A stretch of DNA of 26,627 nucleotides from a virus. This document shows, one piece after another, positions 11,095 through 24,858 of this stretch; positions within the stretch are counted from its first letter, which is position 1; the number at the start of each line of letters is the position of its first letter. Made by a program: the position numbers and the translations under genes. The notes beneath the pieces are model-generated. The model was not told the origin of the DNA, did not search any database, and saw nothing but the letters and a program-made list of their open reading frames with translations. The stretch spans positions 1 to 26,627 of IMG/VR virus record IMGVR_UViG_3300030108_002470. The stretch is one strand, 5' to 3'.

Positions 11095-12303
11095 TTAAAA
11101 TCCTAGTATTTTTGCTAGTCCTCCTTTTTTTAAACCGGCGTATTGTCCTGAATCAGTGTATCCTTGATCAGATGTTCCTGGTGATGTGCTTCCCCCAGGT
11201 TTAGCAGATCCCATATCAGCACCTCCACCATATCCTCCAGTGTATGTATTTTCTGCTCCTGCTCTACTGGTAGTTATACCACCAGTTGTTGTAAAATTTT
11301 TGTCATCTAGAATATCACGCCGTGTTGCTTCTTTTCGTTTAATTAAATTTTTTTGAGCTTCTTCAACTTCATTATAACCAGTTTCTTCTTTTATTTGTTC
11401 GAATTCGTTAATACCTTTTTTATCATAATTATATCTTATTAAGTTTAATTTATTCATACGGTTTGCAGCAGCGGCTTTCGGTCCCTTAAACATAAATTGA
11501 CCAGTCTCTTCATCAAATTCTAACACAGTGTCTTTACCATATCTTTTATCAAATAAATCAGATCCAAAATAATTATCTAATTTTGCAATATCTTTTTTCT
11601 GTTTTTCTACATAGTTACCAAAACCAGAAACAACATTTCTACCAAAAATATCTTTGTTACCACCTGTAGTATTTTCTCCAAATATAGTTGGGCCTTTGTA
11701 TCCCATTTTAGTTTGTGTGTAGATTTGTTCTGGCACAGTCATTTTATCATAATAACTATTTGGAACAACTTTACTTAAAATACTTGATAAAGTAGGAATA
11801 CCATATTGAAATCTTACATCTCTAGGATCTTCTGCAGGATAATTTCCAACACTTGTTTCATCAGCCATGTATTCTTGTATTGCTGCTATTCTTTCATCAG
11901 GACCCATGTTTGAAAATATAGGCATTCCTCTAGTGTCTCCAGGCATCCTTGCCATATTAAAAGCAGTGGCATCTCTCATCATTTGATCTACTGATCTTTG
12001 TTGTGGAAAACCAAAGTCATAAAGTTTTTGTGCAAACAAACTAGGGTTTTCTAAACTCTGCTGTCTATTTTGTACAGCTGAAGTAAAGTTTCCCATTAAT
12101 TGATTTGGAGGAAGAGATGTAATTCCACCGCCTCCACCACCGCCGATGTTTTGTATCGGAGCGATAGCATTAACAGGTGGTGTATCAACCACTGCGTCTT
12201 CTTCTTCTAATTCGTCCAAAGTAGGAGGATTTAACAAATACCTTGATCGCGGCATGTATTCTAAATTTCTTACATTTCTGTAATAATCATCTAAAGCTGA
12301 CAT
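11095..12303 (-). CDS. Virion-associated protein, 402 residues, function unknown
   Basis: The N-terminus carries DDYYR (5-9) and LEYMPRSRYLL (14-24), a motif shared with the 318-residue protein at 9393-10349. A flexible GGGGGGG linker follows near residues 54-60. The middle is a mixed region rich in Asp, Tyr, Lys and Asn (GPTIFGENTTGGNKDIFGRN), and the C-terminus is a low-complexity Gly/Ser/Thr segment ending GGLAKILGF. No catalytic residues are obvious. Its start overlaps the tail nozzle gene stop by one base. By position it is probably an internal or tail-associated structural protein. Confidence 0.7.
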   Translation of the reverse strand: MSALDDYYRNVRNLEYMPRSRYLLNPPTLDELEEEDAVVDTPPVNAIAPIQNIGGGGGGGITSLPPNQLMGNFTSAVQNRQQSLENPSLFAQKLYDFGFPQQRSVDQMMRDATAFNMARMPGDTRGMPIFSNMGPDERIAAIQEYMADETSVGNYPAEDPRDVRFQYGIPTLSSILSKVVPNSYYDKMTVPEQIYTQTKMGYKGPTIFGENTTGGNKDIFGRNVVSGFGNYVEKQKKDIAKLDNYFGSDLFDKRYGKDTVLEFDEETGQFMFKGPKAAAANRMNKLNLIRYNYDKKGINEFEQIKEETGYNEVEEAQKNLIKRKEATRRDILDDKNFTTTGGITTSRAGAENTYTGGYGGGADMGSAKPGGSTSPGTSDQGYTDSGQYAGLKKGGLAKILGF

Positions 12304-14480
12304 TATCTTCTCCCGTCTGGTTGTATATCTAATCTAAATGTGCCAAGTTTCCAATCTTGTGACGTTGAAGTATTTTTTACAGTCAACGCAATTGATCTAG
12401 CTCTTACACGAGTATCTACTTTAGTCGTTGCCGACGTCGTTGTAAAGGTTTGTGTTTTAGCAGAGCTATTAGGAAAGTCTCTTGTAGTAAAGTCTATAGT
12501 TGTGGTTCCTACCTGTGAAATAAAATCAGGTAAAAATCTACGTATTTTCATAATAAATTCACCGTCTCCTCTTATATCGGCCATACCTACAGTCTGTCCT
12601 CTTACAGTTCTTTGAGTAATGTCAAAGTCACCAGAGGTTATGGTTCCAAGTATAGCAGTGGTTGCTCCTCCAGCTAAAACTTGATCGGTCCCTGTTTCGT
12701 GTTCATAGTATATTGTGCAACCGTCAGTGTTTCCTATAACATCATAAGATGAATTACTACCACTATCATAAGAAGTTGCATGTGGTTTACCAAATACAGC
12801 TGAGTCAGCCCATGCCGCTCTCGCTAAAGAACCTGTAACCCAAATAGGTCTTTTTGGTGATGAGTCTAAATAGTTATAGGTTACTGATCTATCCACTACG
12901 TTAGATCCGTTAGTGCAATAAAACCAAGTTACTTCACCAAACAAATTATTTAATCCTGCATTTACAAGATCTCTTGCTGTAGTATTTATATCATCATAAA
13001 CAAAGTCTTCTACTAAACACGGTATTGATTTTAACTGACCATCATAAGTAAAGAATCCGTTTTCTGACATCCAATATGCAGAACCATCAACTTCTACAGC
13101 AGCGTTTTTACCAAGCAAACCGCAGTTAGTTCCTACTTGTTCAAACGCAAATGTAAAAGGTTGACCTACGAATCTCATAAGAAAGAGCGCAGTGTCAGTC
13201 CAAACATAGATAGCATCCCTACCTCGGATAGCTCCCATTATTTTAGAGCCATCAGCAAGTCTTTGAGTTCCTGCAGTGTTAGTTGCTGTTACAGTGTATG
13301 CATTTGTGCCACTAATATTTTCTTGGTCTGAGAATCTTATAAACATATCGTCTTGACTATCAGTGTCTCCTACCGTTGTTTCGGTTCCAAAAAATACTAA
13401 GTGTCTGTCTGGTGTAGATACCATTACATGACGAGATGCTGTTGGTGCGTTTGGTATTAAGGTAGCTCTAATTGCTGTTGCATTGGTAGGAGCAGAGTCC
13501 CATTCAAAACATGCACCATTATAAATTAATGCGATAAGTTTAGTTCCAAAATTATCTAATACCCATAGACCTGGGTCAAGAGTAACATCATCAGAGGATG
13601 ATTCACCCCAAGCAACAAAACCTGAGATGTTGGTTACTGTGGCTCCAGCTGAGTGAGTTGACTTACTAGTTCCGTTTACGCCTCTAGCTCCTCCACTTAA
13701 AGTCCCTGTTGCCGTGTCATTGTTTGTATAGGATATGTCCTCACTTCCTATTCTAATTTCTCCTGATGCTGGAAACTGTGTAGAGTCAGCGATAACTATA
13801 GTTGTAGTTATTAGATCAGTTATAGCCGTTGAAAGAGTTGTTGTTGCTGGTCCTGAAACAGTTCCTGACCATTGTCCAGTACCCCATCCAAAACCCCCAA
13901 CTTGTTGAGAAGGTCCAACACGATAGTACAACAGAGCGTCCGCAGTGCCTGCATTAGTCATTGGACTAGATCCCTCGTTACTAGCTAGTGTAATAGTTAT
14001 AGTGGTTGCTGATGGTGCAGAGGTTACCATATATTTAGTATCTTCAAAATTGCTATCTGAAAATGCAGAACTACCAGGTATACCGCTAACATTATTAAAT
14101 AAAACTATGTCATCATCTTGTAGGTTATGTGGACTTGGAAAAGTTACTGTTATTGTCGGTGAGCCATTCTGACTTGTAAAATCAACTCCACTAATTGTAG
14201 CTCTAATTGGATGGATGTCATAAAACTGACCTCCTGAATATACGTATAAAATTCTATTAGTTCCTATAGCAGCGTATTTAATACCTGCATTATTGTCAAA
14301 TTGATGGAGAGCCCTGCCGGCACCTGTTAGTTTATCACTTCCTAACTGTTGCCAACCACCTATTTTTTCAGGTGATCCATATCTAAAACGTACATTATCG
14401 CCATCAAACCATTGGCCCTCAGCTCCTGTCTCTGTAACTTGTTTATTAAATCCGGGTAAAAATCCTAATTTCTGTAGCAT
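12303..14480 (-). CDS. Probable tail nozzle/tubular protein (podovirus gp12-like)
   Basis: This 725-residue protein opens MLQKLGFLPGFNKQVTETGA and continues with GQWFDGDNVRFRYGSPEKIG, a beginning I recognise from large tail proteins of marine podoviruses. Most of the chain is Ser/Thr/Gly-rich beta structure with blade-like repeats (ILYVYSGGQFYDIHP, LIALIYNGACFEWDS, DAIYVWTDTALFLMRFVG), consistent with the beta-propeller of a tail nozzle such as T7 gp12. The C-terminal part (GEFIMKIRRFLPDF and following) is another beta domain. It is the first structural gene after the oxygenase block and precedes the internal virion genes. The family assignment is from overall pattern and position, not from a catalytic motif. 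Confidence 0.7.
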   Translation of the reverse strand: MLQKLGFLPGFNKQVTETGAEGQWFDGDNVRFRYGSPEKIGGWQQLGSDKLTGAGRALHQFDNNAGIKYAAIGTNRILYVYSGGQFYDIHPIRATISGVDFTSQNGSPTITVTFPSPHNLQDDDIVLFNNVSGIPGSSAFSDSNFEDTKYMVTSAPSATTITITLASNEGSSPMTNAGTADALLYYRVGPSQQVGGFGWGTGQWSGTVSGPATTTLSTAITDLITTTIVIADSTQFPASGEIRIGSEDISYTNNDTATGTLSGGARGVNGTSKSTHSAGATVTNISGFVAWGESSSDDVTLDPGLWVLDNFGTKLIALIYNGACFEWDSAPTNATAIRATLIPNAPTASRHVMVSTPDRHLVFFGTETTVGDTDSQDDMFIRFSDQENISGTNAYTVTATNTAGTQRLADGSKIMGAIRGRDAIYVWTDTALFLMRFVGQPFTFAFEQVGTNCGLLGKNAAVEVDGSAYWMSENGFFTYDGQLKSIPCLVEDFVYDDINTTARDLVNAGLNNLFGEVTWFYCTNGSNVVDRSVTYNYLDSSPKRPIWVTGSLARAAWADSAVFGKPHATSYDSGSNSSYDVIGNTDGCTIYYEHETGTDQVLAGGATTAILGTITSGDFDITQRTVRGQTVGMADIRGDGEFIMKIRRFLPDFISQVGTTTIDFTTRDFPNSSAKTQTFTTTSATTKVDTRVRARSIALTVKNTSTSQDWKLGTFRLDIQPDGRR

Positions 14481-14503: not shown

Positions 14504-15043
14504 TTATTGATTTAAATATAAATTATCCCACGGTTTCTTCTCATAACAATTAAAAGCCATAGTAATTCTAGTCTTTTGTAAATTAGAGGGCACCACTTGA
14601 TGCAATAAAAGTGGATCAAATAAAACGACTTTACCGTACTCTTCTTTTATAGTGGTGTCAAAGTCTTTAAAATATGTACCAGGACCTCCCTCAGTCAGAT
14701 ATAAGATGCCACAAAAACCTGTGCAATCTTTGTGATGGTGTAATAGGGCGTGGTCATCGTTGTCGTAAACATTACCCCAACAATCTTTAACAATAGTAAC
14801 TTGATTAGATATGTTGTCAATATAAGGTTTTATTTCTGTCATAAACTCAAAAATTTCTGGTTCTTCTACTAAACTATGAAACCCTGTAAACTTTGCTTTG
14901 ACATTTGTTTTATAATCTAAAGAGGAATTTTTTGTTCTTTCTATAATTTTATTTTTAATACGTTCTAATAGATCTTTGTTCTTTACAAAACAAGTGCTGA
15001 GATAAGACTCCCTTTGAATTACTTTAGTGATTGTGTGTTGCAT
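14504..15043 (-). CDS. 2OG-Fe(II) oxygenase-like protein (oxygenase 1 from the left)
   Basis: This 179-residue protein reads as a double-stranded beta-helix dioxygenase. The iron site is LHHHKD (HxD = His104, Asp106) with distal His148 (PLLLHQVVPS), and Arg159 in TRITMAF should bind the 2-oxoglutarate carboxylate. The strand YLTEGGPGTYF between them is typical. The N-terminal 90 residues are helical and charged, with no signal peptide. Its substrate is unknown. Its ATG overlaps the stop of the kinase-like gene by one base (TAATG). It is the last gene of the tailoring block, 23 bases before the tail nozzle gene. Confidence 0.82.
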   Translation of the reverse strand: MQHTITKVIQRESYLSTCFVKNKDLLERIKNKIIERTKNSSLDYKTNVKAKFTGFHSLVEEPEIFEFMTEIKPYIDNISNQVTIVKDCWGNVYDNDDHALLHHHKDCTGFCGILYLTEGGPGTYFKDFDTTIKEEYGKVVLFDPLLLHQVVPSNLQKTRITMAFNCYEKKPWDNLYLNQ

Positions 15044-15507
15044 TAATATAAAGTTGTATCTATTAGTTTGTGTTCACCATTCTTTATACTGTTAACTAAT
15101 GTTTTAATTTTGTCATCATAATTAAAATCCGTTATTACCATGTCTGCTTGTATATCCTTTGGTGGTTGAAAAATTTTGTCTGTGTCTTTGTAGTCACTTT
15201 CTTTAATAGTATTCATCCAAACAAAATAATTAAATCTTTTTCTTAGTGTTTCATAAGGACATATAAAATCTACTATTGCTCCCTCTCTTCTCATTTCACA
15301 CAGTTTAAACATTCTATCTGCTTGTCTTATTCTACCGTTAATAGAAAAATCGTAATCATTAAACATGTCTCTAATTTTATCTGCATTAAAATAAGCATAA
15401 TTAATGCCTTCGTCTTTTAACGCCTGCCATAGTTTCTCTGCAAAAGTTGTTTTACCAGAACCTGATAAACCAAATATTAATATTCTAGTTCTAAATTCTC
15501 TAAGCAT
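15043..15507 (-). CDS. Adenylylsulfate (APS) kinase-like P-loop protein
   Basis: APS kinases phosphorylate adenylyl sulfate to PAPS, the sulfate donor for sulfotransferases. The 154-residue protein has the P-loop GLSGSGKTT (13-21), the substrate-region motif NADKIRDMF (41-49, compare the DGDNVR of CysC), RQADR (61-65), and VDFICPYETLRKRF (79-92), which matches the AFISP segment of CysC. The late TDKIFQPPKD corresponds to the YEPP region. It is shorter than typical CysC (about 200 residues). It overlaps oxygenase 2 by 8 bases. A sulfotransferase lies in the same block, supporting a PAPS-making role, but another nucleotide or polyol kinase activity is possible. Confidence 0.8.
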   Translation of the reverse strand: MLREFRTRILIFGLSGSGKTTFAEKLWQALKDEGINYAYFNADKIRDMFNDYDFSINGRIRQADRMFKLCEMRREGAIVDFICPYETLRKRFNYFVWMNTIKESDYKDTDKIFQPPKDIQADMVITDFNYDDKIKTLVNSIKNGEHKLIDTTLY

Positions 15508-16039
15508 TTGACAAATTAAAATTTATAACACATCTTTTTAAAGATTTTATTGGATGTCCTGAAGCATGTTTTATAGCTCCATTAAATAGTAATAGACTTC
15601 CTTTTTTTGGCATAATTTTGTGAGTAATATTATTATCATTGTCAAATAAAAAAGTAAATCCATCGCTATCGTTAACATAATAAATCGCTGCTAGATGTGG
15701 TTCATCTCTATCTGTATGAGGGCAGTTATAAGTCTCTGTGGTTGCGTTTCTGTTTTGCCCTTGTAGATTTACTTTAGCTCTTAAAATTTTATTAGGTAGA
15801 TTAAGTTTACTTATTATTCCATTTGGTATGTAAGAATATTTAGAATACTCACTATAAAAAACATGGCATAATTGATAGTAATCTACAATATTAGAAAAGT
15901 TTTTTTCTTCCTGTTTAAGATCAAACAAAGATAAAGTATTTTCGTGTGCGTAATACCAAGGAAAATTTATATCAAAAATAGTATTGTGTATCTCATCTAC
16001 CTCTGTCGGTGTTAAAAAATTATGGTACAAATAATTCAT
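15500..16039 (-). CDS. 2OG-Fe(II) oxygenase-like protein (oxygenase 2)
   Basis: The 179-residue chain contains a clear facial triad: HTD (His108, Asp110) in CPHTDRDEPHLAAIYYVNDS, and distal His158 in GAIKHASGHP, followed by Arg169 in LKRCVINFNL for 2-oxoglutarate. Between them, GFTFLFDNDNN and KKGSLLLFNG are the usual beta-helix strands. The prolyl-hydroxylase-like layout, with an early NFLTPTEVDEIHN helix, suggests a hydroxylase on a peptide or small molecule; the substrate is unknown. It overlaps oxygenase 3 by 20 bases at its start and the kinase-like gene by 8 bases at its end, so its translation is tightly linked to both. Confidence 0.87.
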   Translation of the reverse strand: MNYLYHNFLTPTEVDEIHNTIFDINFPWYYAHENTLSLFDLKQEEKNFSNIVDYYQLCHVFYSEYSKYSYIPNGIISKLNLPNKILRAKVNLQGQNRNATTETYNCPHTDRDEPHLAAIYYVNDSDGFTFLFDNDNNITHKIMPKKGSLLLFNGAIKHASGHPIKSLKRCVINFNLSNA

Positions 16040-16631
16040 TTAAATCATCGGACTTTCCTAGAACTCCTTTTACAAAAACATTAAATGAAAGACTAATTCT
16101 TAAATCATCATTATGTTTTCTAGGAACTGAGTGTGCTAGAGTAGATGGAAATATAAAGAGATCTCCTTTGTCTACTTCAAAAACCCACCTACCAGAATTG
16201 TATGGGTTAAACTCTTTAACTTTTATTTCAATCTGGTCTCTGTTTACTTTATGAAAAGTTATTGAGTCATGTTTTTTGTCTGCAGCAATATACAAAACAC
16301 CAGACGCAATAGAGTTTGAATGTGAGTGATAATGGTGGTGTTCATTTATAGTTGTAAAGTTTACCCATGATTGTGTAATATAAGGAGTCACTTTTTCTGA
16401 AGCATGTATAACTTCTTTAAAATAATTATTTACATGAACCATTAAATCTTTTTTAAGATGTTCTAATTGTTTTTTGTTTAAGAGATAGTTTTCTTTTGAC
16501 GTAAGATTACCTTCATTCTTAGTAGACTTTTGTTGTTGATTTTTTATGTAGTCTATATCGTGTTCAGTAATCTTTTGTTTCATGTCTGCACGATAAATGG
16601 GAAATGGAAATATTGAATGTACTTTATGCAT
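16020..16631 (-). CDS. 2OG-Fe(II) oxygenase-like protein (oxygenase 3, HxH type)
   Basis: This 203-residue protein opens HKVHSIFPFPIYRADM, the start typical of the putative 2OG-Fe(II) oxygenase family PF13759. The metal region is NEHHHYHSHSNSIASGVLYI (97-116), with His102 and His104 in an HxH where most relatives of this block have HxD, then GDLFIFPSTLAHSVP giving distal His167, and Arg178 in LRISLSFNV. The same layout recurs in oxygenase 5, two genes upstream, so these two look like paralogues. Catalytic competence is likely but the HxH type is poorly characterised. It overlaps oxygenase 4 by 8 bases. Confidence 0.83.
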   Translation of the reverse strand: MHKVHSIFPFPIYRADMKQKITEHDIDYIKNQQQKSTKNEGNLTSKENYLLNKKQLEHLKKDLMVHVNNYFKEVIHASEKVTPYITQSWVNFTTINEHHHYHSHSNSIASGVLYIAADKKHDSITFHKVNRDQIEIKVKEFNPYNSGRWVFEVDKGDLFIFPSTLAHSVPRKHNDDLRISLSFNVFVKGVLGKSDDLNELFVP

Positions 16632-17106
16632 TTTTTATTGAAAAACTATATACCCACATTTTTCTCTCACCTTTCTTTAATATCTTACTACCATGATATA
16701 CTTTAGAAACATAATAACACATCATGCTGCCTTTTGTAAACGGTATGATGTCCTCTTCCGTAGGAGTTTTTTGAATGTAAGCTTGACCCCCTTCTATATC
16801 TGATAAAAATAAATTACAGTGAAACGTATCATAGTCTTTTTTCTTTGGATCTTTATGTAAATAACAATGGTCCCCTGGATAGGCACAACTAGCTGCCATG
16901 TAATTAAAGTCTTTAATATTTAACTTTTTTTCTATTCTATCTTTTATTATGTAAGCCACTTGAGGATACTGCATAGTATCAATAAATCTAGATGTAATCC
17001 TATTACCCCCCATGTTAGCATCCTCAAAGTTTTGTTTATTATTATCTATCCAATGACATAGATCGTCTACTTCTTTTTTGTTTATAAAATCTTTGTATAC
17101 TTTCAT
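16624..17106 (-). CDS. 2OG-Fe(II) oxygenase-like protein (oxygenase 4)
   Basis: A compact 160-residue member. Motifs are YLHKD (His84, Asp86), FHCNLFLSDIEGGQAYI as the central strands, distal His138 in VSKVYHGSK, and Arg148 in GERKMWVYSF. The opening MKVYKDFINKKEVDDLCHWI matches the N-terminal helix of prolyl-4-hydroxylase-like proteins. All four key residues are in place, so it is probably an active hydroxylase; the substrate is unknown. Its ATG overlaps the stop of oxygenase 5 by one base, and its end overlaps oxygenase 3 by 8 bases. It separates the two HxH paralogues. Confidence 0.87.
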   Translation of the reverse strand: MKVYKDFINKKEVDDLCHWIDNNKQNFEDANMGGNRITSRFIDTMQYPQVAYIIKDRIEKKLNIKDFNYMAASCAYPGDHCYLHKDPKKKDYDTFHCNLFLSDIEGGQAYIQKTPTEEDIIPFTKGSMMCYYVSKVYHGSKILKKGERKMWVYSFSIKNA

Positions 17107-17627
17107 TAGTGTCCTATTAAATTAAGATGAAAAGAAATAACAATTTTATCTTCTCCTTTGTTTGGTAAACTTTGATGAGGTAAAAAAGCAGGAAAGATTA
17201 ATATATCTCCTGCCTCTACTTCAAATATAAATTTTCTATTAGGTGGGCAGTCTGTAATATGAGTAGTTTGATTTTTATTAGCTTTTAAATAAAATACATT
17301 TGAAAAATTAGATTTAGGGTGAGTGTGTAAATTATGGTAGTCGCCTTTACAATAATGTTGAAACCATATGCTATCTAGTTCTGCACCCTTTTGGTTTGTG
17401 TGTTTTATAAACTCTTTAGCAAAATCTTCAAAAATGTTATTAAAAAAATATTTAACATACTTTCTATTATCGTGTTGATTGTTCCAGTCTGTGTGTGATA
17501 TTTTTTCACTCTCTGTATTTATTGATTGTCCGTGTTCTAGATTAATTAAATCTAATAACGGATTAATGTGTTTTAATACTTCTTTATTTCTATACAGATA
17601 AATATATTTAGAAAGTTCTTTAATCAT
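17106..17627 (-). CDS. 2OG-Fe(II) oxygenase-like protein (oxygenase 5, HxH type)
   Basis: This 173-residue protein matches oxygenase 3 in layout: WFQHYCKGDYHNLHTHPKSN and SNVFYLKA (about 88-115) give His101 and His103 in an HxH, and AGDILIFPAFLPHQS gives distal His151. At the position where relatives carry the 2-oxoglutarate-binding Arg it has Lys161 (EDKIVISFHL), an atypical but possibly functional substitution. The HTHPKSNFSN phrase is characteristic of PF13759-like proteins. It may be a paralogue of oxygenase 3. It overlaps oxygenase 6 by 8 bases. Confidence 0.8.
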   Translation of the reverse strand: MIKELSKYIYLYRNKEVLKHINPLLDLINLEHGQSINTESEKISHTDWNNQHDNRKYVKYFFNNIFEDFAKEFIKHTNQKGAELDSIWFQHYCKGDYHNLHTHPKSNFSNVFYLKANKNQTTHITDCPPNRKFIFEVEAGDILIFPAFLPHQSLPNKGEDKIVISFHLNLIGH

Positions 17628-18171
17628 ACAACACCCAATCAGTAATAAGGTGCACTCTATCTATGTTGCTTTTATTATGTACAGAGTGTTCTTTGCCTGC
17701 GTTATTTATTTCCCATATTTCCCCAGGTCGCATATACTTTTTTTCATCTCCTACTATAAAAATACATTCAGGGTCAGTTAATATAGCCATATGTAATCTT
17801 TTGCATTTTTCTAAATTATCACTTTCGTCTTTATGTTTAGCTATACTATGTTTAGATTTTAAAGATGTTAAGATAGCTCTTAATAAATAACCATCACCGT
17901 ATGTGTCTTTACAAATATCACTCACTGCCTCCAACAAAAACTTAAACTTTGGGTAATGTAATCTGGCAGTAACACTTTTAATATCTTCTATTTTTTTAGT
18001 CATGTTATCTATGTCAAATAAAAGAGGTATTGTTTTTGTATGTTGATGTACTTCCCATGTGTTCTGTCTATAGGTAAACCTGTTCCAGTCTTCCTCAGTA
18101 AAACTTTTAATTATGTCAACACATGAATTAACATTTATAGTAGATATTTTTTTAAAATTAAAATCAGACAT
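17620..18171 (-). CDS. Aspartyl/asparaginyl beta-hydroxylase-like protein (oxygenase 6)
   Basis: This is the most readily placed member. The sequence AKHKDESDN (His113, Asp115), CKRLHMAILTDPECIFIVGD, RPGEIWEINNAGKEHSVHN (distal His162) and DRVHLITDWV (Arg172) follow the aspartyl/asparaginyl beta-hydroxylase pattern (PF05118) in order and spacing. That family hydroxylates Asp or Asn in proteins, or acts on lipids and small molecules in bacteria. The protein is 183 residues with no signal peptide or membrane span, so it should act in the cytoplasm on phage or host molecules. It lies 3 bases after oxygenase 7 and overlaps oxygenase 5. Confidence 0.88.
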   Translation of the reverse strand: MSDFNFKKISTINVNSCVDIIKSFTEEDWNRFTYRQNTWEVHQHTKTIPLLFDIDNMTKKIEDIKSVTARLHYPKFKFLLEAVSDICKDTYGDGYLLRAILTSLKSKHSIAKHKDESDNLEKCKRLHMAILTDPECIFIVGDEKKYMRPGEIWEINNAGKEHSVHNKSNIDRVHLITDWVLYD

Positions 18172-18174
18172 GTT

Positions 18175-18720
18175 TTAATTAAAAGTAAACACTACAGCTC
18201 TTCTTAATCCATTTTGAGGATATTCAAATTGGTGAGGAACATTATCTCCAAAACAAACAATTTTAAAATTTTTAGGTTCGATTGTTTTAATCATGGTTTC
18301 TTGGTCATCCTCATAAACATTTAAATTACCGTGGACTTCATCACCCAAGTATAACATAAAGACAGTATGATTTAAATCAGGTGTATGGTCCACATGAACT
18401 ATTGTTTTATCCCATTTAACCTTTGTAGTCATGTTTATCGAACCTCTTAATATTTTATTAAAAGGTATATTATATTTTTTTGTAAACCTTATTAATATCT
18501 GTAAAAAGAATTCTGTGTAAGGAGATATGTTTCTATCTTTTGTATTGTCTACTTTTGGATCATCATATCTAAGAACTAGATTGTGACAAAGAACAGGTGC
18601 GTCTCGTCTATATACACCTATTCTTTTAGTGTAGAAAAAAGGTATGTTTTCAAATTCATTATTTAAAAACTCTTTTTCTTTATCGGTTAAAAAGTTTTCG
18701 TCTTCAATTAGGTATCTCAT
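18175..18720 (-). CDS. 2OG-Fe(II) oxygenase-like protein (oxygenase 7)
   Basis: The 181-residue protein has IVHVDHTPD (His109, Asp111), the strand TVFMLYLGDEVHGNLNVYED, distal His163 in DNVPHQFEYPQ, and Arg173/Arg174 in LRRAVVFTF. An early DENFLTDKEKEFLNNEF helix resembles the N-terminal segment of prolyl hydroxylase-like enzymes. The triad looks intact. Its start overlaps the end of oxygenase 8 by 17 bases, so translation is coupled. The substrate is unknown; nothing in the sequence separates protein from small-molecule substrates. Confidence 0.85.
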   Translation of the reverse strand: MRYLIEDENFLTDKEKEFLNNEFENIPFFYTKRIGVYRRDAPVLCHNLVLRYDDPKVDNTKDRNISPYTEFFLQILIRFTKKYNIPFNKILRGSINMTTKVKWDKTIVHVDHTPDLNHTVFMLYLGDEVHGNLNVYEDDQETMIKTIEPKNFKIVCFGDNVPHQFEYPQNGLRRAVVFTFN

Positions 18721-19156
18721 TTGTTTTATAAGCTAAAGTTATTCTATGGCCTTTTTTAGGAGAACGCCCCTTGTGCGGTATTTTTGAATTAAATAAAATT
18801 AATCTGTTTTCTTTAAAAGGTATTACTTGTTCACCAAGTTCAAAGTCCCCTTCTCCTGCAATCATTAATAAGCAAGTAGTTTGACCATCGTCAATGTGGG
18901 TCTCACTAATCATATTAGAGAACTGTAAGTTTGTATAGAATCTGAGCATCTCTAAATTTCTTTGAGATACTGCTTTAATTTTAAAAAATATAAAATCAAT
19001 TAAACAATCGTGTGGTGGTATACCCATTAGAAAAAAGTTTTCTTCACTTTTATCACTTCGTTGAAACTTAAAGGCCACATCATTACGAAAATACTTTTGA
19101 CAATAATCTAATAATATAGGTTCTAAAAAATTATCGTATATCTCACAGTTCAACAT
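18704..19156 (-). CDS. 2OG-Fe(II) oxygenase-like protein (oxygenase 8)
   Basis: At 150 residues this is the smallest oxygenase in the block, close to the minimal size of the fold. SETHIDDGQTTCLLMI contains the HxD (His87, Asp89), SKIPHKGRSPKK the distal His128, and GHRITLAYKT the Arg138. The strands GEGDFELGEQVIPFKENRLI and LFNS complete the core. The N-terminus MLNCEIYDNFLEPILLDYCQ is an alpha/beta segment common to the neighbours. It overlaps oxygenase 9 by 14 bases and oxygenase 7 by 17 bases. Confidence 0.84.
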   Translation of the reverse strand: MLNCEIYDNFLEPILLDYCQKYFRNDVAFKFQRSDKSEENFFLMGIPPHDCLIDFIFFKIKAVSQRNLEMLRFYTNLQFSNMISETHIDDGQTTCLLMIAGEGDFELGEQVIPFKENRLILFNSKIPHKGRSPKKGHRITLAYKTNEIPN

Positions 19157-19679
19157 AATTTGCCCATCCTGTAACTATGTATTTATATTCTTTTGGAGCT
19201 GGTTTTCCATAATGACTGTGTGTCCATGCTGCAGGCCAAATAGCTAATGTCCCTTGTTCTGGATATAGGCTAGTGTCCTGTTGTGGAAAATAAGTCTCTC
19301 CTCCATTATTAATTGTATTACAATATATAGTCCAAGCAAGCATTCGTCTGCTGTCTTGCTTTTGACCACCTTGTTCAGAATGTTCTGCAGAGTAATGTTG
19401 TCCAGGTTTATATTTTTGATAATTACAACTGGCTTGAACATGCCATTGACAAAGATTTTCGCTGTCTAAAAATTTATGTCGGTCTTTATATTCTAATATA
19501 CAATTAAAAAGATCTTCTTTCCATTCTGACTTATAAACATCTACGGATACGCCACTATAAAAATCTTTTATCCTTTCAGCTTGCCCTGGATTTAATTTAA
19601 CAGTATTTAAAATATCTATAATGTTTTCACACTTTTGTTTGCTTACAGCATTCTTTTTTATAAAAATATAACTGTTCAC
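19143..19679 (-). CDS. 2OG-Fe(II) oxygenase-like protein with HxE motif (oxygenase 9)
   Basis: This 178-residue protein has the marine-phage hydroxylase pattern YKPGQHYSAEHSEQGG, then MLAWTIYCNTINNGGETYFP, AIWPAAWTHSHYGKP and YKYIVTGWANY. The iron pair reads His100-Ser-Glu102, so Asp is replaced by Glu; HxE is known in some clavaminate-synthase-type 2OG enzymes but not usual in this subfamily. Distal His154 (or His156) is present. The final strand has Lys166 where an Arg is common, a feature I associate with KYIVTGW-type relatives. It may be active with altered geometry. It overlaps oxygenase 8 by 14 bases. Confidence 0.82.
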   Translation of the reverse strand: MNSYIFIKKNAVSKQKCENIIDILNTVKLNPGQAERIKDFYSGVSVDVYKSEWKEDLFNCILEYKDRHKFLDSENLCQWHVQASCNYQKYKPGQHYSAEHSEQGGQKQDSRRMLAWTIYCNTINNGGETYFPQQDTSLYPEQGTLAIWPAAWTHSHYGKPAPKEYKYIVTGWANYVEL

Positions 19680-20293
19680 TATTGACCTTTAAACCAAGCT
19701 GGTAATCCTAAGTGTGGTCTATGGTCGTATTTTGATGAGGTAGTATTTACATTGTTGTAGTGTAAAAATGTTTGTATGCATGCTTCGCCTTTAAACTCTT
19801 TTCTCCAATGCTTTAACATTGCTCCTTTGTAAAGCAGCATATCACCAACACCTAATTTAACTTCCACAGTTTTACTTTCAACTTCTAAGTATATGGGCCA
19901 GATCTTGTCACAGCCTATATTTAAAGTAGCAGAAATTTCACAAGAATCTCTGTCTGTATGTTCTTCTAAAACAGATCCTTTTTTATAAACTCTAAGATAA
20001 GAGTATTGTTCATTTAATTTTAATCCTGTGTGTTGTTCTATTAAAGGCTTTAATTTAACTAAAATCATGTCAGTGGGTATGTCCCCATATATTGAGTAAG
20101 ATCCAAGTGCTTGCGGGTCATTAACAGATCCTTCGTCTATATTATATCTATTAACATAATTATACTTTCTTTTAGTGTTATACACTTCAGATTTATTAGC
20201 ATAATATTCTGTTAAAAAACCTAACAGTTCTTCTGATAAAGTATTTCTTATAATACAATAATGTCTTTCTTTAAAAATAATCCCATCCTTCAT
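19679..20293 (-). CDS. 2OG-Fe(II) oxygenase-like protein (oxygenase 10)
   Basis: The 204-residue sequence has YSYLRVYKKGSVLEEHTDRD (97-116), giving the HxD of His112 and Asp114, then CEISATLNIGCD, GVGDMLLYKGAMLKHWRKEF with distal His162, and IQTFLHYNNV as the last strand. Gln174 occupies the place where the 2-oxoglutarate Arg usually sits, so cosubstrate binding may rely on another residue (Arg115 or Arg164 are nearby). It overlaps the end of the sulfotransferase gene by 23 bases. The C-terminal DHRPHLGLPAWFKGQ tail is unusual among the block's members. Confidence 0.82.
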   Translation of the reverse strand: MKDGIIFKERHYCIIRNTLSEELLGFLTEYYANKSEVYNTKRKYNYVNRYNIDEGSVNDPQALGSYSIYGDIPTDMILVKLKPLIEQHTGLKLNEQYSYLRVYKKGSVLEEHTDRDSCEISATLNIGCDKIWPIYLEVESKTVEVKLGVGDMLLYKGAMLKHWRKEFKGEACIQTFLHYNNVNTTSSKYDHRPHLGLPAWFKGQ

Positions 20294-21011
20294 ATCTTTT
20301 TATAATATCCTTTGGTAAATATTGTTCAACATCATAGACATCTTTTTTTATTTCTGACTTAATTTTATGTAAGTTAGCTTCAAAAACAGTGTCGTTATAT
20401 TGGACACCATTATATGTAAATTGTTCAATATTTTCAAATCGATGTTTGAACTCTGGTATTTCAAAATAACTATATATCTCTTTCATTTTTTCTTCTGTAT
20501 TATTTACCAAATCATCATATTTTATCAATAGGTAGTTTTGGTTTGTTTTAATTATATTGCTTGTTGATTGCCAGTCCCAATATATTTTACCAAGATCTGG
20601 GTGCATTAAATTGTACACTAAATTAACTGGATCGTCTGGTTTTTGTATTTTTACATAAGACGCTAAGACTTCTACCAAAGGTCTTACTAGTAAAAGAAAC
20701 TTTGGTTTATAATTTAATTTTTCTAACATACCTAAATTATAAGGAGTTCCCCAACCACCTCTTTCAAATATAAACTCTGAATCTATATGTTCGTAATAAT
20801 TTTTAAAAAGATTATTTATTACGTTATCTAAACCAGATACTTCAGGAACATTCTTTATCCAATCTGATTTATACATCTCAAACAAACTATACATTATTTG
20901 AACAACACAGCTGTTTGGAGTTACTGTTATATTTTTATTTTGATTTAAAATAGAAGATAAAAATGTATTCCCTGATCTAGAGTAGCCAGAAAGAAAGTAT
21001 ATTTTTTTCAC
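20271..21011 (-). CDS. PAPS-dependent sulfotransferase-like protein
   Basis: The 246-residue protein begins KKIYFLSGYSRSGNTFLSSI (2-21), which matches the 5'-phosphosulfate-binding loop (PKSGTTWL-like) of sulfotransferases, and contains FLLLVRPLVEVLASYVK with Arg110 and Ser118 as the expected 3'-phosphate contacts. The rest is typical alpha/beta, ending KDIIKRYEGWDYF. These enzymes move sulfate from PAPS to a hydroxyl or amine on sugars, proteins or small molecules. With an APS-kinase-like gene in the same block, donor supply and transfer could be encoded together. There is no signal peptide or anchor, so it should act in the cytoplasm. It overlaps oxygenase 11 by 4 bases. Confidence 0.87.
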   Translation of the reverse strand: MKKIYFLSGYSRSGNTFLSSILNQNKNITVTPNSCVVQIMYSLFEMYKSDWIKNVPEVSGLDNVINNLFKNYYEHIDSEFIFERGGWGTPYNLGMLEKLNYKPKFLLLVRPLVEVLASYVKIQKPDDPVNLVYNLMHPDLGKIYWDWQSTSNIIKTNQNYLLIKYDDLVNNTEEKMKEIYSYFEIPEFKHRFENIEQFTYNGVQYNDTVFEANLHKIKSEIKKDVYDVEQYLPKDIIKRYEGWDYF

Positions 21012-21628
21012 CTAAAAGGGTCTCCAACACACCAGATAACTAAAGAGTATCTTGTTCCTTTTGTTACAGGATTAACTCTATGGAAAGTGTCACTAGGAAA
21101 AATAACCATAGATCCTTTACCAGATAATTCTTTTAAAGAATGTCTACGTGTGCCCATCTCTACGTTAGAAAAATCAAACTCAAAGTCACCACCTTCATAT
21201 TCATCTGGGTGAGATAGTAATAAAGACAAAGATAGTTTTCTTATTTTTTTATAAAAAAATGGTTCTTCTGGATTATCAAAAGGTTTATTTGTTGTATCCA
21301 TATGCCATTTATAATATTGACCTTTTCCATATTTAGTAAATTGAGCTTGTTCCATTCTATCCCAATCATAGTTCCATTTTGCATCTTTATTAGCTTGTTG
21401 AACAACAGGTGTTATTTCTTTGTATATCCAATTTTCATCTAGCCAACTTAAATCAGAATCTCTAATTTTTAACAGTTCAGAAATACCGTCGTCTTTATGT
21501 TCTTCATAAGTTTTATCTGCTGTCAAACCTTTTCCTAGATTTTTACTTAAACCTAATTTTTTTATTTGGTCGCAAATATGTTCTGGAATTACTTTGTCGT
21601 AAATCCAAAATGCATTTTCATTTACCAT
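21008..21628 (-). CDS. Prolyl-4-hydroxylase-like 2OG-Fe(II) oxygenase (oxygenase 11)
   Basis: This 206-residue protein resembles PKHD/PiuC-type hydroxylases. Motifs are FTKYGKGQYYKWHMDTTNKP (His109, Asp111), IRKLSLSLLLSHPDEYEGGD, GKGSMVIFPSDTFHRVNPVT (distal His183) and KGTRYSLVIWCVGDPFR (Arg193). All expected ligands are present in the right order, so it should be active. That family includes enzymes acting on Pro or on other residues in proteins, but the substrate here is unknown. It overlaps oxygenase 12 by 11 bases and the sulfotransferase gene by 4 bases. Confidence 0.9.
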   Translation of the reverse strand: MVNENAFWIYDKVIPEHICDQIKKLGLSKNLGKGLTADKTYEEHKDDGISELLKIRDSDLSWLDENWIYKEITPVVQQANKDAKWNYDWDRMEQAQFTKYGKGQYYKWHMDTTNKPFDNPEEPFFYKKIRKLSLSLLLSHPDEYEGGDFEFDFSNVEMGTRRHSLKELSGKGSMVIFPSDTFHRVNPVTKGTRYSLVIWCVGDPFR

Positions 21629-22133
21629 TTTCTTGTATATCTCCTATAAATACATTTAGAGTCAATCTTTCTTTACTATCAAAAGGTAGTAATGAGGTAT
21701 AGCCATGTCGTCTATTTCCATCATAAGCTATCATAGAATTAAAAGTATTTCCTACAATTACTTGTTTTTTATTTTTATTATTATTTTCAAATATTGTGGT
21801 TCCACCTTCTATATCTCCCTCACTTAAATATATTACTGCAGCTATTCTTGCATCATCATCTACATGAAATCTTGTTTTCCCTTGGTCCCCATGTTTTAAT
21901 CTACTAAAAATAACACTAGAATTACTGTAACGTAATTCTTTATTAGGATAATAGTAATGTAAAATTTTCATAATCACACTATTAAATAAATCATAGTGTG
22001 TATTGTGTAGTGAGTGTGTTCTAAGACCAGGCCAATTGGCATTTTTTGGTGTGTGGTATTTTAATTCTTTAGATAAATTAATTATATCATTTACGTTATC
22101 AAAAAAATCATCAACAACTATCGTGTGTAACAT
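21618..22133 (-). CDS. 2OG-Fe(II) oxygenase-like protein (oxygenase 12, first in transcription)
   Basis: This 171-residue protein opens MLHTIVVDDFFDNVNDIINL, a helix seen in several phage oxygenases. The metal site is KTRFHVDDDARIAAVIYL (His90, Asp92), the middle strand EGGTTIFENN, distal His143 in NRRHGYTSLL, and Arg156 in KERLTLNVFIG. It is the first gene of the block to be transcribed, 34 bases downstream of the Gly-rich adhesin gene; an AGAAG-type binding site may precede its ATG. No separate promoter is evident, so expression probably follows the adhesin gene. Confidence 0.86.
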   Translation of the reverse strand: MLHTIVVDDFFDNVNDIINLSKELKYHTPKNANWPGLRTHSLHNTHYDLFNSVIMKILHYYYPNKELRYSNSSVIFSRLKHGDQGKTRFHVDDDARIAAVIYLSEGDIEGGTTIFENNNKNKKQVIVGNTFNSMIAYDGNRRHGYTSLLPFDSKERLTLNVFIGDIQENGK

Positions 22134-22167: not shown

Positions 22168-23163
22168 TTAACTTGGCCAGTTATCATCTATTATTGCAGA
22201 GTATACAGCTTTTAAAGACCATCTTCCACTTGAAACAGAAGGTCCTGCCCCTGTTTCTATAACGTGAACTCCGCCATCACCGCCTGTTGATCCTGGGTTT
22301 GGAGCATTATAACATGATCCTCCGCCGCCACCAGTTCCGTCAGTCCCCGTTGGAGGTGTAAAATAAGAATTAGGTGCTCCACCGCCTTTTGCAAGACTAG
22401 CAGATCCGCCACCACCACCTGCAATTTTTCCAGTTCCTCCAGGTGAAAAAATTGGTGATTGAGGTAATGCTTTAGTTGGAAATACTACGTTACCCTCTCC
22501 GGCTGTAGATTGAGCGCCTGCTTGTGCAGCTCCTCCTCCACCACCACCGATTCTATTATCGTGGACTCCTTGTGAATTTCCTACACCACCTGCGTTACCA
22601 ACATTAACATTTGATCCAGGGTTTGATACACCCGGTTGATTAGCCGATCCTCCAGGGTTATTGTTTGTAGGGTTATGGCTTCCTCTTCCGCCTCCTCCGC
22701 CAGACCCTCCGGCCTGTCCGTTGTAAGTTCCTGATGGTGAAGTGTAATTTGGTAAAGATCTTCCACATCCACCGCCACCTTGTGCAGTGTAAGTTGTGCC
22801 CCCAATAGGTGCAGATGTATTACTTCCATTTCCAGCAGTTCCACCTTGTCCGGCAGCACTACCGCCTCCGCCAACAGTTACTGGAAAACTTGATGCAAGG
22901 TTAGCGCTATCTATGACTACAAGTCCGCCGGCTCCTCCGCCGCCTGCTTGTCGGCCACCGCCGCCCCCGCCACCAACAAGAATTACTTTTCCTGTTTGAC
23001 CGCTATTTTTAGGGTCTGCTCCAGAAAAAGTTCCTGGTGATGTGAATGACGTTACTTTATCGTTTAGTTCAGGTGTATTATCTGGACCAATAACTCCACC
23101 GTCATTTTGTAAATTCATTTGTCCTACTAGTGAAAAACCTGCTGTTAAAAAACCTGTTGTCAT
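22168..23163 (-). CDS. Glycine-rich tail fibre adhesin
   Basis: The 331-residue protein has an N-terminal segment (TSFTSPGTFSG), then a large Gly-rich domain (about 60-310) with runs such as VGGGGGGGRQAGGGGAGG and GGGGGSCYNAPNPGSTGGDG, and a C-terminal RWSLKAVYSAIIDDNWPS phrase familiar from marine phage tail proteins. Polyglycine-helix sandwiches of this sort serve as receptor-binding tips, as in T4-like gp38 adhesins, so this is a candidate host-recognition protein. The gene is noticeably richer in G+C than its neighbours because of Gly codons. It lies directly upstream of the oxygenase block in the direction of transcription. Confidence 0.8.
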   Translation of the reverse strand: MTTGFLTAGFSLVGQMNLQNDGGVIGPDNTPELNDKVTSFTSPGTFSGADPKNSGQTGKVILVGGGGGGGRQAGGGGAGGLVVIDSANLASSFPVTVGGGGSAAGQGGTAGNGSNTSAPIGGTTYTAQGGGGCGRSLPNYTSPSGTYNGQAGGSGGGGGRGSHNPTNNNPGGSANQPGVSNPGSNVNVGNAGGVGNSQGVHDNRIGGGGGGAAQAGAQSTAGEGNVVFPTKALPQSPIFSPGGTGKIAGGGGGSASLAKGGGAPNSYFTPPTGTDGTGGGGGSCYNAPNPGSTGGDGGVHVIETGAGPSVSSGRWSLKAVYSAIIDDNWPS

Positions 23164-23165
23164 AT

Positions 23166-23675
23166 TTATTCTTTAATACTCCATGTTGAAGAATCTGGAT
23201 TCCATTCTTTAGTTATTGTTACACCATCTACAACTCTTTGTCCAATCCACTTTAATAGATTTTCGTGCCAATCAATGTGTAAATTATCATCATAGAAACG
23301 ATCTCTAGGTAAAGAGTTTCCTTGATCATCTACTGTTGGATAAGCTACCGGTGATGACCACTGAAATTTATCGTTTAATGTATAAGAAGCAAAAAGTTGT
23401 TCCGGTATAAAAGCATCGTTTGCTGGGTCATAGGTGCCCCCTATACCAGCATAATTCCATCTAGTGGCTGCATCAAAAGCAGTTTTGTAAGTTTGTTTCC
23501 AGGCTACTCCTGGGTAAGATCCATCAACTAATGGTATATCTGGATCGTTAGGAATATTGCTTGAACACCATGTTTCGCCAGCTGGATCATTTGGAGAAGA
23601 TACAATATCTTCGGGAGCGGTAACAACTCTTATTACCGTATTATTTGAATCCAATTCTGCGAAATATAAAGCCAT
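23166..23675 (-). CDS. Small tail/virion protein of marine-phage type, 169 residues
   Basis: The protein opens MALYFAELDSNNTVIRVVTA and contains SYPGVAWKQTYKTAF, WNYAGIGGTYDPANDAFIPE and FASYTLNDKFQWSSPV, phrases I recognise from small virion-region proteins of cyanophages and pelagiphages. They are usually annotated as hypothetical structural proteins next to fibres. The end is Trp-rich (IDWHENLLKWIGQRVV). There are no catalytic motifs. It lies 2 bases before the Gly-rich adhesin and after an inverted repeat (23688-23712) containing a TATAAT box, so it may begin a transcript as well as receive readthrough. Confidence 0.75.
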   Translation of the reverse strand: MALYFAELDSNNTVIRVVTAPEDIVSSPNDPAGETWCSSNIPNDPDIPLVDGSYPGVAWKQTYKTAFDAATRWNYAGIGGTYDPANDAFIPEQLFASYTLNDKFQWSSPVAYPTVDDQGNSLPRDRFYDDNLHIDWHENLLKWIGQRVVDGVTITKEWNPDSSTWSIKE

Positions 23676-24104: not shown

Positions 24105-24845
24105 CTATCCGAAAACTAAAGCCATTGCAATAGCTTTTCCTGTTGTTGCTAAACCTGACCCATTTGCTTGGACTTCTCCAGTCCCTTTTGGTACCAGATT
24201 AATACTAATATTACTATCACCCCCAGTAGCTGTAAATGCAGGTGCATTTCCAGTAGCTGCGTTGGCATAAGTTAATTCATTTACAGCAGAACCCGTCGCT
24301 GTTAATAAAAATAATTCGTTGCCATTAGTGTCTAAAATAGATGTCCCTATTTTAGGAGAAGTTAATGTTTTGTTTGTTAAAGTTTGTGTTCCAGTTGTAG
24401 TAACATCACCAGCAGGTAAAGTATCTATATCTGGATTAGTTCCGTCGTTTGCAGTAGCAAATACAACAGCATCACCTTTGTTATCTGCTGCAAAAGTAAA
24501 ACTATCTCCTGAACCAGATACATATTTAAATTGAACTGTATACGCACCTGATGTTGAGTTTCTTAAATAATAAAACGTTTGAACATCTAAAGGTATTGTT
24601 ACAATTTGATTTCCTGTAATAGTTCCTGTGAACTCAATCATTCTGTGAGAAAGTTCTGCACCAGTTGCTCCATCAGAAACTGCTAATGCAGTTGTTTGAG
24701 CTCCACCTGCTATAGATTTAGCAATGTACCCACCAGCTATTTGTTCTATAATTTCTAAATTGGTATTTGTTTTTGTTCCCCATGTACCGGCATTTTCACC
24801 GGTTGCCATTTTCTCTATACCGAGAGGTGTATATGTTGATGCCAT
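24105..24845 (-). CDS. Tail fibre-type protein, 246 residues
   Basis: The chain opens MASTYTPLGIEKMATGENAG, continues with WGTKTNTNLEIIEQIAGGYI, and contains TLTNKTLTSPKIGTSI, a phrase characteristic of marine phage fibre proteins. The TNTNLE and TLTNKTLT segments are typical trimeric-fibre repeats, followed by a Ser/Thr/Gly beta-rich tail (NISINLVPKGTGEVQANGSG). It should form part of the fibre shaft or its adapter. It lies between two other fibre or decoration genes with normal ribosome binding sites; nothing odd is visible. Confidence 0.8.
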   Translation of the reverse strand: MASTYTPLGIEKMATGENAGTWGTKTNTNLEIIEQIAGGYIAKSIAGGAQTTALAVSDGATGAELSHRMIEFTGTITGNQIVTIPLDVQTFYYLRNSTSGAYTVQFKYVSGSGDSFTFAADNKGDAVVFATANDGTNPDIDTLPAGDVTTTGTQTLTNKTLTSPKIGTSILDTNGNELFLLTATGSAVNELTYANAATGNAPAFTATGGDSNISINLVPKGTGEVQANGSGLATTGKAIAMALVFG

Positions 24846-24858
24846 AAAAAACTCCTAT

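Follow-up and report, generated by a model that had tools for sequence, protein, structure and literature searches.

A block of twelve predicted 2-oxoglutarate-type oxygenase genes is inherited with a probable phage adhesin gene and may tailor its product

Twelve oxygenase genes in a 14-gene block

The window analysed here is the whole of IMG/VR virus record IMGVR_UViG_3300030108_002470 (26,627 bases), which is classed as linear and is probably a fragment. At positions 14504-22133 it carries a block of 14 open reading frames, all on the minus strand, with g01 transcribed first and g14 last (Table 1). An earlier inspection of the bare sequence (the sequence-only reading) had proposed that twelve of them encode 2-oxoglutarate (2OG)/Fe(II)-type oxygenases and that they are expressed together as one operon. 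The packing is as tight as it described: neighbouring genes overlap by 1-23 bases at 12 of the 13 junctions, and g07 and g08 are separated by a 3-base gap. The block begins 34 bases after up1, a glycine-rich gene, and ends 23 bases before dn1, a virion structural gene. The case for a single operon rests on the overlaps and the common strand, whereas scans of the window for promoter and terminator patterns found them at the frequency of shuffled sequence and did not delimit an operon.

All twelve flagged genes encode double-stranded beta-helix (DSBH) oxygenases of the 2OG/Fe(II) type, as identified by profiles, by conserved metal ligands and, for g04 and g10, by structure. The ligand order that the sequence-only reading had relied on is weak evidence by itself, since the same pattern occurs in 35 of 405 control proteins (9%) and in 28% of shuffled copies. 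We therefore used profiles and structures, which uphold the identification and rule out chance ligand patterns as the explanation of the twelve. Seven of the twelve score above the Pfam threshold for an oxygenase-type family (g01 through DUF6445 only). Eleven, all but g10, have a Pfam or PHROG match to a family with a 2OG oxygenase annotation or a profile link to such oxygenases; g10 matched no Pfam or PHROG family. Part of this support runs through PHROGs that bear the labels "DNA endonuclease V", "ferrochelatase" or "minor coat protein" and match proteins that 2OG profiles also match. Iterated profiles, built from the window genes over their relatives, joined 11 of the twelve in one superfamily, with g10 matching the g02 profile at 2e-15 and g04 linked to g09 at 7e-8. 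The same profiles had no match among 1,717 reversed proteins or among the structural genes of the window. The twelfth protein, g08, lies outside this superfamily and scores above the Pfam cut-off for Asp_Arg_Hydrox.

Structures were modelled for g04 and g10, the two least certain members, and the remaining ten rest on sequence profiles. The best match of the g10 model (10 sequences, predicted local distance difference test (pLDDT) 66) is the collagen prolyl hydroxylase of PBCV-1 (5c5t, E 1.4e-5), while the g04 model (49 sequences, pLDDT 92.5) has VIA Z 16-17 to PHD2 and prolyl 4-hydroxylase (P4H). Sequence searches of the PDB yielded only a weak match of the g10 profile to prolyl 3-hydroxylase 1, and no useful match with the g04 profile, up1 or g03.

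Every orthologue of g01, g02, g05-g08, g10-g12 and g14 keeps the metal ligands unchanged, and so do the 49 aligned sequences of g04. An invariant HxD/E...H triad is found in g01, g02, g04-g08, g10 and g12; HxH replaces HxD in g11 and g14, where it is invariant, and in g09, where it was read by eye. The basic residue for 2OG binding, about 10 residues past the distal His, is Arg in nine of the proteins and Lys in g05 and probably g09, while its position in g04 is ambiguous. 2OG/Fe(II)-dependent catalysis is a prediction for all twelve.

Table 1. Genes of the block and its surroundings (window positions)
Gene	Position	Strand	Product or family	Remarks
up4 and up5	24105..26181	(-)	Virion/tail genes (up4, phrog_31104)	Upstream backbone anchors, not co-inherited with the module
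up2	23166..23675	(-)	"MAHFA"-type small protein (phrog_7759)	Opens the co-inherited module
up1	22168..23163	(-)	Glycine-rich protein, 28% Gly (Pfam Gly_rich_2, phrog_2295)	Probable tail-fibre tip/adhesin, proposed substrate
g01	21618..22133	(-)	2OG-type oxygenase (DUF6445 over cut-off; 2OG-FeII_Oxy_3 weak)	Ligands H90/D92/H143/R156
g02	21008..21628	(-)	2OG-FeII_Oxy_3 oxygenase (phrog_61)	Ligands H109/D111/H183/R193
g03	20271..21011	(-)	PAPS-type sulfotransferase (Sulfotransfer_1, Sulfotransfer_3 over cut-off)	
g04	19679..20293	(-)	2OG-type oxygenase, phage "ferrochelatase" family (phrog_2954)	DSBH model; H112/D114/H162
g05	19143..19679	(-)	2OG-FeII_Oxy_3 oxygenase	H100/E102/H154 or H156/K166
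g06	18704..19156	(-)	Cupin/2OG-type oxygenase (phrog_274)	H87/D89/H128/R138
g07	18175..18720	(-)	2OG-type oxygenase (phrog_274)	H109/D111/H163/R173
g08	17620..18171	(-)	Aspartyl/asparaginyl beta-hydroxylase family protein	H113/D115/H162/R172
g09	17106..17627	(-)	2OG-FeII_Oxy_5 oxygenase, HxH type	H101/H103/H150, assigned by eye
g10	16624..17106	(-)	Oxygenase without library match	Profile link to g02; H84/D86/H138/R148
g11	16020..16631	(-)	2OG-FeII_Oxy_5 oxygenase (phrog_81), HxH type	H167/R178
g12	15500..16039	(-)	2OG-type oxygenase (phrog_274)	H108/D110/H158/R169
g13	15043..15507	(-)	APS-kinase-like P-loop kinase	Only the N-terminal half matches APS_kinase
g14	14504..15043	(-)	2OG-FeII_Oxy_5 oxygenase, HxH type	H102/H104/H148/R159; closes the module
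dn1	12303..14480	(-)	Virion structural protein (phrog_3287)	Downstream backbone anchor, not co-inherited with the module
PAPS, 3'-phosphoadenosine-5'-phosphosulfate; APS, adenosine-5'-phosphosulfate.

The block is inherited with the fibre genes upstream

We compared protein identities pairwise among up to 16 cassettes. The identities of up1 and up2 follow the cassette mean (correlations 0.92 and 0.86) as those of g01-g14 do (0.59-0.98), whereas the flanking genes in the same cassettes do not (up3 0.16, up4 -0.08, up5 -0.39, dn1 0.29, dn3 -0.01). The exchanged unit is therefore larger than the oxygenase block: an exchangeable cassette spans up2 (23675) to g14 (14504), with up1 and up2 included. 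In 44 other loci the genes fall into two linkage groups, one made up of the glycine-rich gene, up2, g02 and g04, and the other, which flanks it on both sides, of dn1, up4 and up5. Mantel tests on 31 dereplicated loci link up2 to g02 (r=0.63) and g02 to g04 (r=0.71, both p=0.0005), the glycine-rich gene to g02 (r=0.22, p=0.01) and dn1 to up5 (r=0.84); the correlation is -0.05 between the glycine-rich gene and dn1 and 0.00 between g02 and dn1. A glycine-rich gene (at least 20% Gly) lies no more than four genes upstream of 35 of 45 blocks, not all of which are independent loci, as against 3 of 297 other genes.

The product of up1 is probably a tail-fibre tip or adhesin, and up2 is possibly an assembly partner of the glycine-rich fibres, which it adjoins in many phages. 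A tblastn search with the glycine-rich protein returned no matches, probably owing to the low-complexity filter. Within up1, Asn, Pro, Asp and Tyr are more conserved than the other non-glycine residues (41 of 65 versus 52 of 171, p=6e-6, a post hoc comparison); a similar bias is slight in up2, up4 and dn1, and some is seen in up3. We regard this as a post hoc hint of modification, which may have a purely structural cause. A distinct type of fibre, of 300-600 residues with 12-17% glycine and repeats like NTELYNGSNWTEVNNLNTSR, stands beside four or five oxygenases in the loci L044, L062, L126 and L129.

More than 13 contigs, which come from different metagenomes, carry the block with proteins 52-97% identical to those of the window, and this recurrence rules out an assembly artefact, a possibility that the sequence-only reading had raised. 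One relative (L092) carries all 12 oxygenases and others carry 9-11. The block is under purifying selection (median dN/dS 0.07-0.26 across all 14 genes). Its members are mutually dissimilar, as had been noticed from the letters, with about 25% identity in the most similar internal pairs, which rules out recent gene amplification. Accumulation from several sources, the origin suggested by the sequence-only reading, holds only in part: g08 is of another family, and the other 11 are old relatives within one superfamily.

By its protein relationships and gene order, the window appears to belong to the HTVC023P-type pelagiphage lineage or a near relative. Its dn1 protein has at least 80 relatives in IMG/VR and is 38-45% identical to those of the annotated phages 023Pt_psg01, HTVC027P and HTVC023P, and the order of fibre genes, oxygenases, dn1 and helicase is the same in the window and in HTVC023P-type phages. 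No polA gene was identified in the 26.6 kb fragment, and a nucleotide search of annotated phages with the window found nothing. Infection of SAR11 is known for the cultured HTVC023P-type members only. In 41 relatives with both borders located, mostly 3-11 oxygenase genes lie between the tail genes on the upstream side and dn1; a few low counts reflect mis-set borders, HTVC023P being one such case. Genes of the g02 and g04 types are the most recurrent. A search of cellular genome contigs with g04 alone yielded mostly phage contigs of the same layout, two of which (L158 and L160) hold at least 10 oxygenases.

Related cassettes carry interchangeable tailoring enzymes

The combination of a glycine-rich gene, a MAHFA-type gene and an oxygenase run is also present in the T4-like phages S-SM1, S-RSM4, S-SSM5, S-CAM8 and HTVC008M and in HTVC033P. 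In Mosig, a glycine-rich gene accompanies the oxygenase run, and no MAHFA protein was detected.

The tailoring repertoire is interchangeable among sister cassettes. Trp_halogenase-family proteins occur in the blocks of nine loci, and carbamoyltransferases occur in those of L002, L059 and L143 and beside those of S-SSM5 and S-CAM8. TylF-type O-methyltransferases are encoded in L004 and L160, a JmjC_2/cupin protein in L064, and further sulfotransferases in sister blocks. In known pathways carbamoyl-, methyl- and sulfotransferases, though not halogenases, act on hydroxyl groups, which oxygenases would create. A recurrent family of 103-112 residues (WDVEGILHNQKYKFDLRPI...) stands inside or at the end of many oxygenase blocks (L118:3595-3906, L021:9664-9978, L056:2759-3085, L064:7334-7669 and others). 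On a 118 kb contig of a Porticoccaceae metagenome-assembled genome (L161, a non-SAR11 bin), oxygenases lie near two genes that resemble tryptophan halogenases by appearance; this contig may represent another phage type with the same kind of cassette.

In the window itself, g03 has both PAPS-binding motifs, of which GYSRSGNT is nearly invariant and RPLVEVLASY invariant in orthologues. The kinase g13 passes the Pfam cut-off for APS_kinase, covering only positions 5-91 of the 152 in the profile. The cellular proteins closest to it are short SAR11 kinases, whose genes have other neighbours, among them a nucleotidyltransferase-like gene. Six loci on SAR11-family chromosomes (L175-L180, each near position 5000) carry such a relative, of 135 residues. 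In most of them it adjoins the nucleotidyltransferase-like gene, which has a GRWQPFHDGH motif, and often it also adjoins the gene of a protein of about 395 residues that resembles a Rieske oxygenase (by appearance only).

The "ferrochelatase" family has a predicted oxygenase fold

The "ferrochelatase" partner reported in marine phages, to whose family g04 belongs, is a DSBH oxygenase by profile and predicted structure. No ferrochelatase profile in Pfam matches g04, for which only 2OG-FeII_Oxy_2 appears there at E<=1 (E=0.11); the g04 model is a DSBH that aligns with dioxygenases over its whole length. We therefore reject a heme or ferrochelatase link for this family, and the published heme link (PMC9599517) should be revisited. 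The g04-type "ferrochelatase" families are phrog_2954 and phrog_3531, with HTVC023P gp67 and S-SM1 SSM1_060/061 among their members. Single g04-family genes also occur in Spirosoma endophyticum (L172) and Legionella (L170), away from any visible phage cassette.

PHROG 1644, 2297 and 274 match g01, g05, g06, g07 and g12, the same proteins that 2OG profiles match, and the labels "minor coat protein", "DNA endonuclease" and "DNA endonuclease V" on these PHROGs may be misannotations. Re-annotation is called for in the case of "ferrochelatase", and perhaps of "DNA endonuclease V" and "minor coat protein".

A possible mechanism and its alternatives

The inheritance of an oxygenase set with a probable adhesin gene suggests that the virus may chemically decorate this protein. 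We then propose that the block contributes the enzymes to an exchangeable cassette for host recognition, whose products would be a glycine-rich fibre tip, its small partner, twelve cytoplasmic oxygenases, a sulfotransferase and an APS-kinase-like kinase. During late expression, the oxygenases would add hydroxyl groups to loop side chains of the adhesin, and perhaps to other fibre parts, before assembly. The sulfotransferase would then cap or alter some of these positions, a step that in sister cassettes might fall to a halogenase, an O-carbamoyltransferase or an O-methyltransferase. The outcome would be a receptor-binding chemistry that goes beyond the 20 amino acids. Our inferences are the adhesin role of up1, its role as the substrate, a sequential action of the enzymes and receptor binding as the outcome. 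Since none of the 14 block proteins has a transmembrane or signal-like segment by simple hydropathy, the enzymes should act in the cytoplasm, where fibres are synthesized.

We give a probability of about 0.5 to an exchangeable tailoring cassette that modifies the glycine-rich fibre tip during assembly. It is favoured by the inherited partner, by the variety of active sites, by folds like those of prolyl hydroxylases (the nearest folds of the g04 and g10 models are protein prolyl hydroxylases) and by the exchangeable capping enzymes. The listing of Fe(II)-dependent oxygenases among the most frequent genes of hypervariable host-recognition islands in marine phages (Mizuno et al. 2014, PMC3909814) also counts in favour of a host-recognition cassette. 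The sequence-only reading had suspected a multi-step modification system for an unknown substrate, which fits these results, and the linkage data now point to the upstream adhesin as a candidate. A broader proposal, on which we would bet a little less readily, is that marine phages of unrelated families trade cassettes in which their own oxygenases and capping enzymes diversify a glycine-rich adhesin after translation.

Several points weigh against fibre-tip modification. The modification of virion proteins is a proposal from sequence; co-inheritance with the adhesin is also expected if the enzymes modify its receptor, and a shared fold does not fix the substrate. The link of the glycine-rich gene to g02 and g04 is modest in the dereplicated loci (r 0.22-0.25, p 0.01-0.03), and about 10 blocks adjoin a fibre with less than 20% glycine, several of these with 16-19%. 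Greip, HTVC025P, CRP-143 and other phages have the glycine-rich/MAHFA pair with no oxygenases close by, and the pair is therefore a fibre unit of its own to which the enzymes have been added. There are also single 2OG genes that lie apart from fibre genes, as in ACG-2014a. Sulfation is the least certain step of the proposed pathway: besides the half-length APS_kinase match of g13 and the differing surroundings of its SAR11 relatives, only 5 of 78 SAR11-family genomes show ATP sulfurylase, and a SAR11 host might therefore offer little sulfate donor.

The main rival is that the enzymes modify the host surface to which the adhesin binds (lipopolysaccharide, capsule or an outer-membrane protein), either for superinfection exclusion or to keep progeny from binding to debris. 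Enzymes and adhesin would then travel together because both are matched to one receptor, so the same co-inheritance is predicted. The accessory enzymes also resemble those that tailor glycans and natural products, and in S-SCSM1 the 2OG genes are placed among nucleotide-sugar genes, those for fucose and mannose (PMC9602691), which likewise speaks against a fibre substrate. However, Pfam and hydropathy searches of the window block found no glycosyltransferase, flippase, membrane protein or exported protein, HTVC023P has a glycosyltransferase but beyond dn1, and the oxygenase genes are surrounded by virion genes in the relatives examined. We consider host-surface modification unlikely, although it deserves to be taken seriously.

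The enzymes may instead tailor a small secondary metabolite made from a host precursor, a role suggested for some cyanophage clusters in which halogenase and carbamoyltransferase accompany 2OG enzymes (PMC7824862); these two, TylF and large sets of oxygenases are typical of natural-product tailoring. However, the blocks contain no scaffold-forming enzyme or transporter, and their composition varies while the adhesin neighbourhood stays, which makes this explanation distinctly improbable. Slightly less probable again are auxiliary metabolic genes that tune the 2-oxoglutarate, nitrogen or iron metabolism of the host, as has been proposed for cyanophages (PMC3037559) and pelagiphages (PMC9599517). 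This account can appeal to 2OG as a central nitrogen signal in cyanobacteria, but leaves unexplained the position in the virion region, the fibre linkage, the diverse conserved active sites and the sulfotransferase, halogenase and carbamoyltransferase partners, and the fold predicted for the "ferrochelatase" behind the heme link is that of an oxygenase. Modification or repair of DNA bases by enzymes of the AlkB or TET/JBP type, which some annotations assume, is very improbable: a few distant AlkB matches among the structural neighbours of g10 stand against the linkage to fibre genes, the lack of a Tet_JBP or AlkB Pfam match over the cut-off in any of the twelve (the best being the sub-threshold match of g04 given above), and the finding of no DNA glycosyltransferase or thymidylate synthase beside the block.

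If tailoring of the fibre tip is correct, the cassette would be a peptide-tailoring pathway whose product is a host-recognition protein. It would explain many function-unknown 2OG and halogenase genes of ocean viruses, and would mean that receptor-binding chemistry can be changed by means other than mutation.

Comparison with known systems

Large numbers of 2OG genes in a marine phage are already known (Sullivan et al. 2010, PMC3037559; PMC9602691), and the sequence-only reading overstated its case in calling a block of twelve far beyond what is known: about nine stand in a row in S-SM1 and S-RSM4, at least 10 are present in L158 and L160, and S-SCSM1 has 24 per genome (PMC9602691). Among the closest systems are the HTVC023P-type pelagiphages, for which Wittmers et al. 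(2022, PMC9599517) described eight non-orthologous 2OG genes, often near one another and with one or two "ferrochelatases" as neighbours. These phages are of the same lineage, and HTVC023P has the same order of glycine-rich fibres, MAHFA protein and oxygenases, including g02, g11 and g04 types. That paper treats the genes as auxiliary metabolic genes with a heme partner and draws no link to fibres, whereas the window has 12 contiguous oxygenases, its module boundary takes in the adhesin, and the "ferrochelatase" type has a predicted oxygenase fold.

In the T4-like cyanophages S-SM1, S-RSM4 and S-SSM5, runs of about 6-9 related oxygenases likewise adjoin glycine-rich fibre genes, and a MAHFA protein is often present, but these phages belong to another family and their clusters have been interpreted in terms of 2OG signalling, DNA repair or host reprogramming. 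S-SCSM1 differs in that its 24 2OG genes are spread over the genome (PMC9602691). Phage 2OG genes have also been read as decorating metabolites or capsules (PMC7824862). In the metaviromic islands, the oxygenases are listed in a table only, without mechanism, substrate or module structure (PMC3909814).

The gp38 adhesins of T-even/S16-type phages and PP01 (PMC12892980) can be likened to up1 by description, being glycine-rich and probably located at the tail-fibre tip. The collagen prolyl hydroxylase of PBCV-1 and the bacterial P4H that acts on EF-Tu (5c5t, 4iw3) are the nearest solved folds to g10 and g04. Both are single enzymes, and the identities are 12-18%. To our knowledge, neither is linked to fibre genes, and no modification enzymes are encoded beside gp38.

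In a literature search outside of which lay subscription papers and preprints, we found no precedent for hydroxylation of phage tail proteins and no paper that ties 2OG oxygenases to an adhesin as a transferable module or shows their substrate. 2OG-Fe(II) oxygenases are among the commonest function-unknown genes of marine phages and are usually filed under host metabolism. What appears to be new, within the literature searched, is the tie between these oxygenases and a probable adhesin as a transferable unit, and their co-inheritance provides a concrete substrate candidate and places them in host recognition rather than in metabolism.

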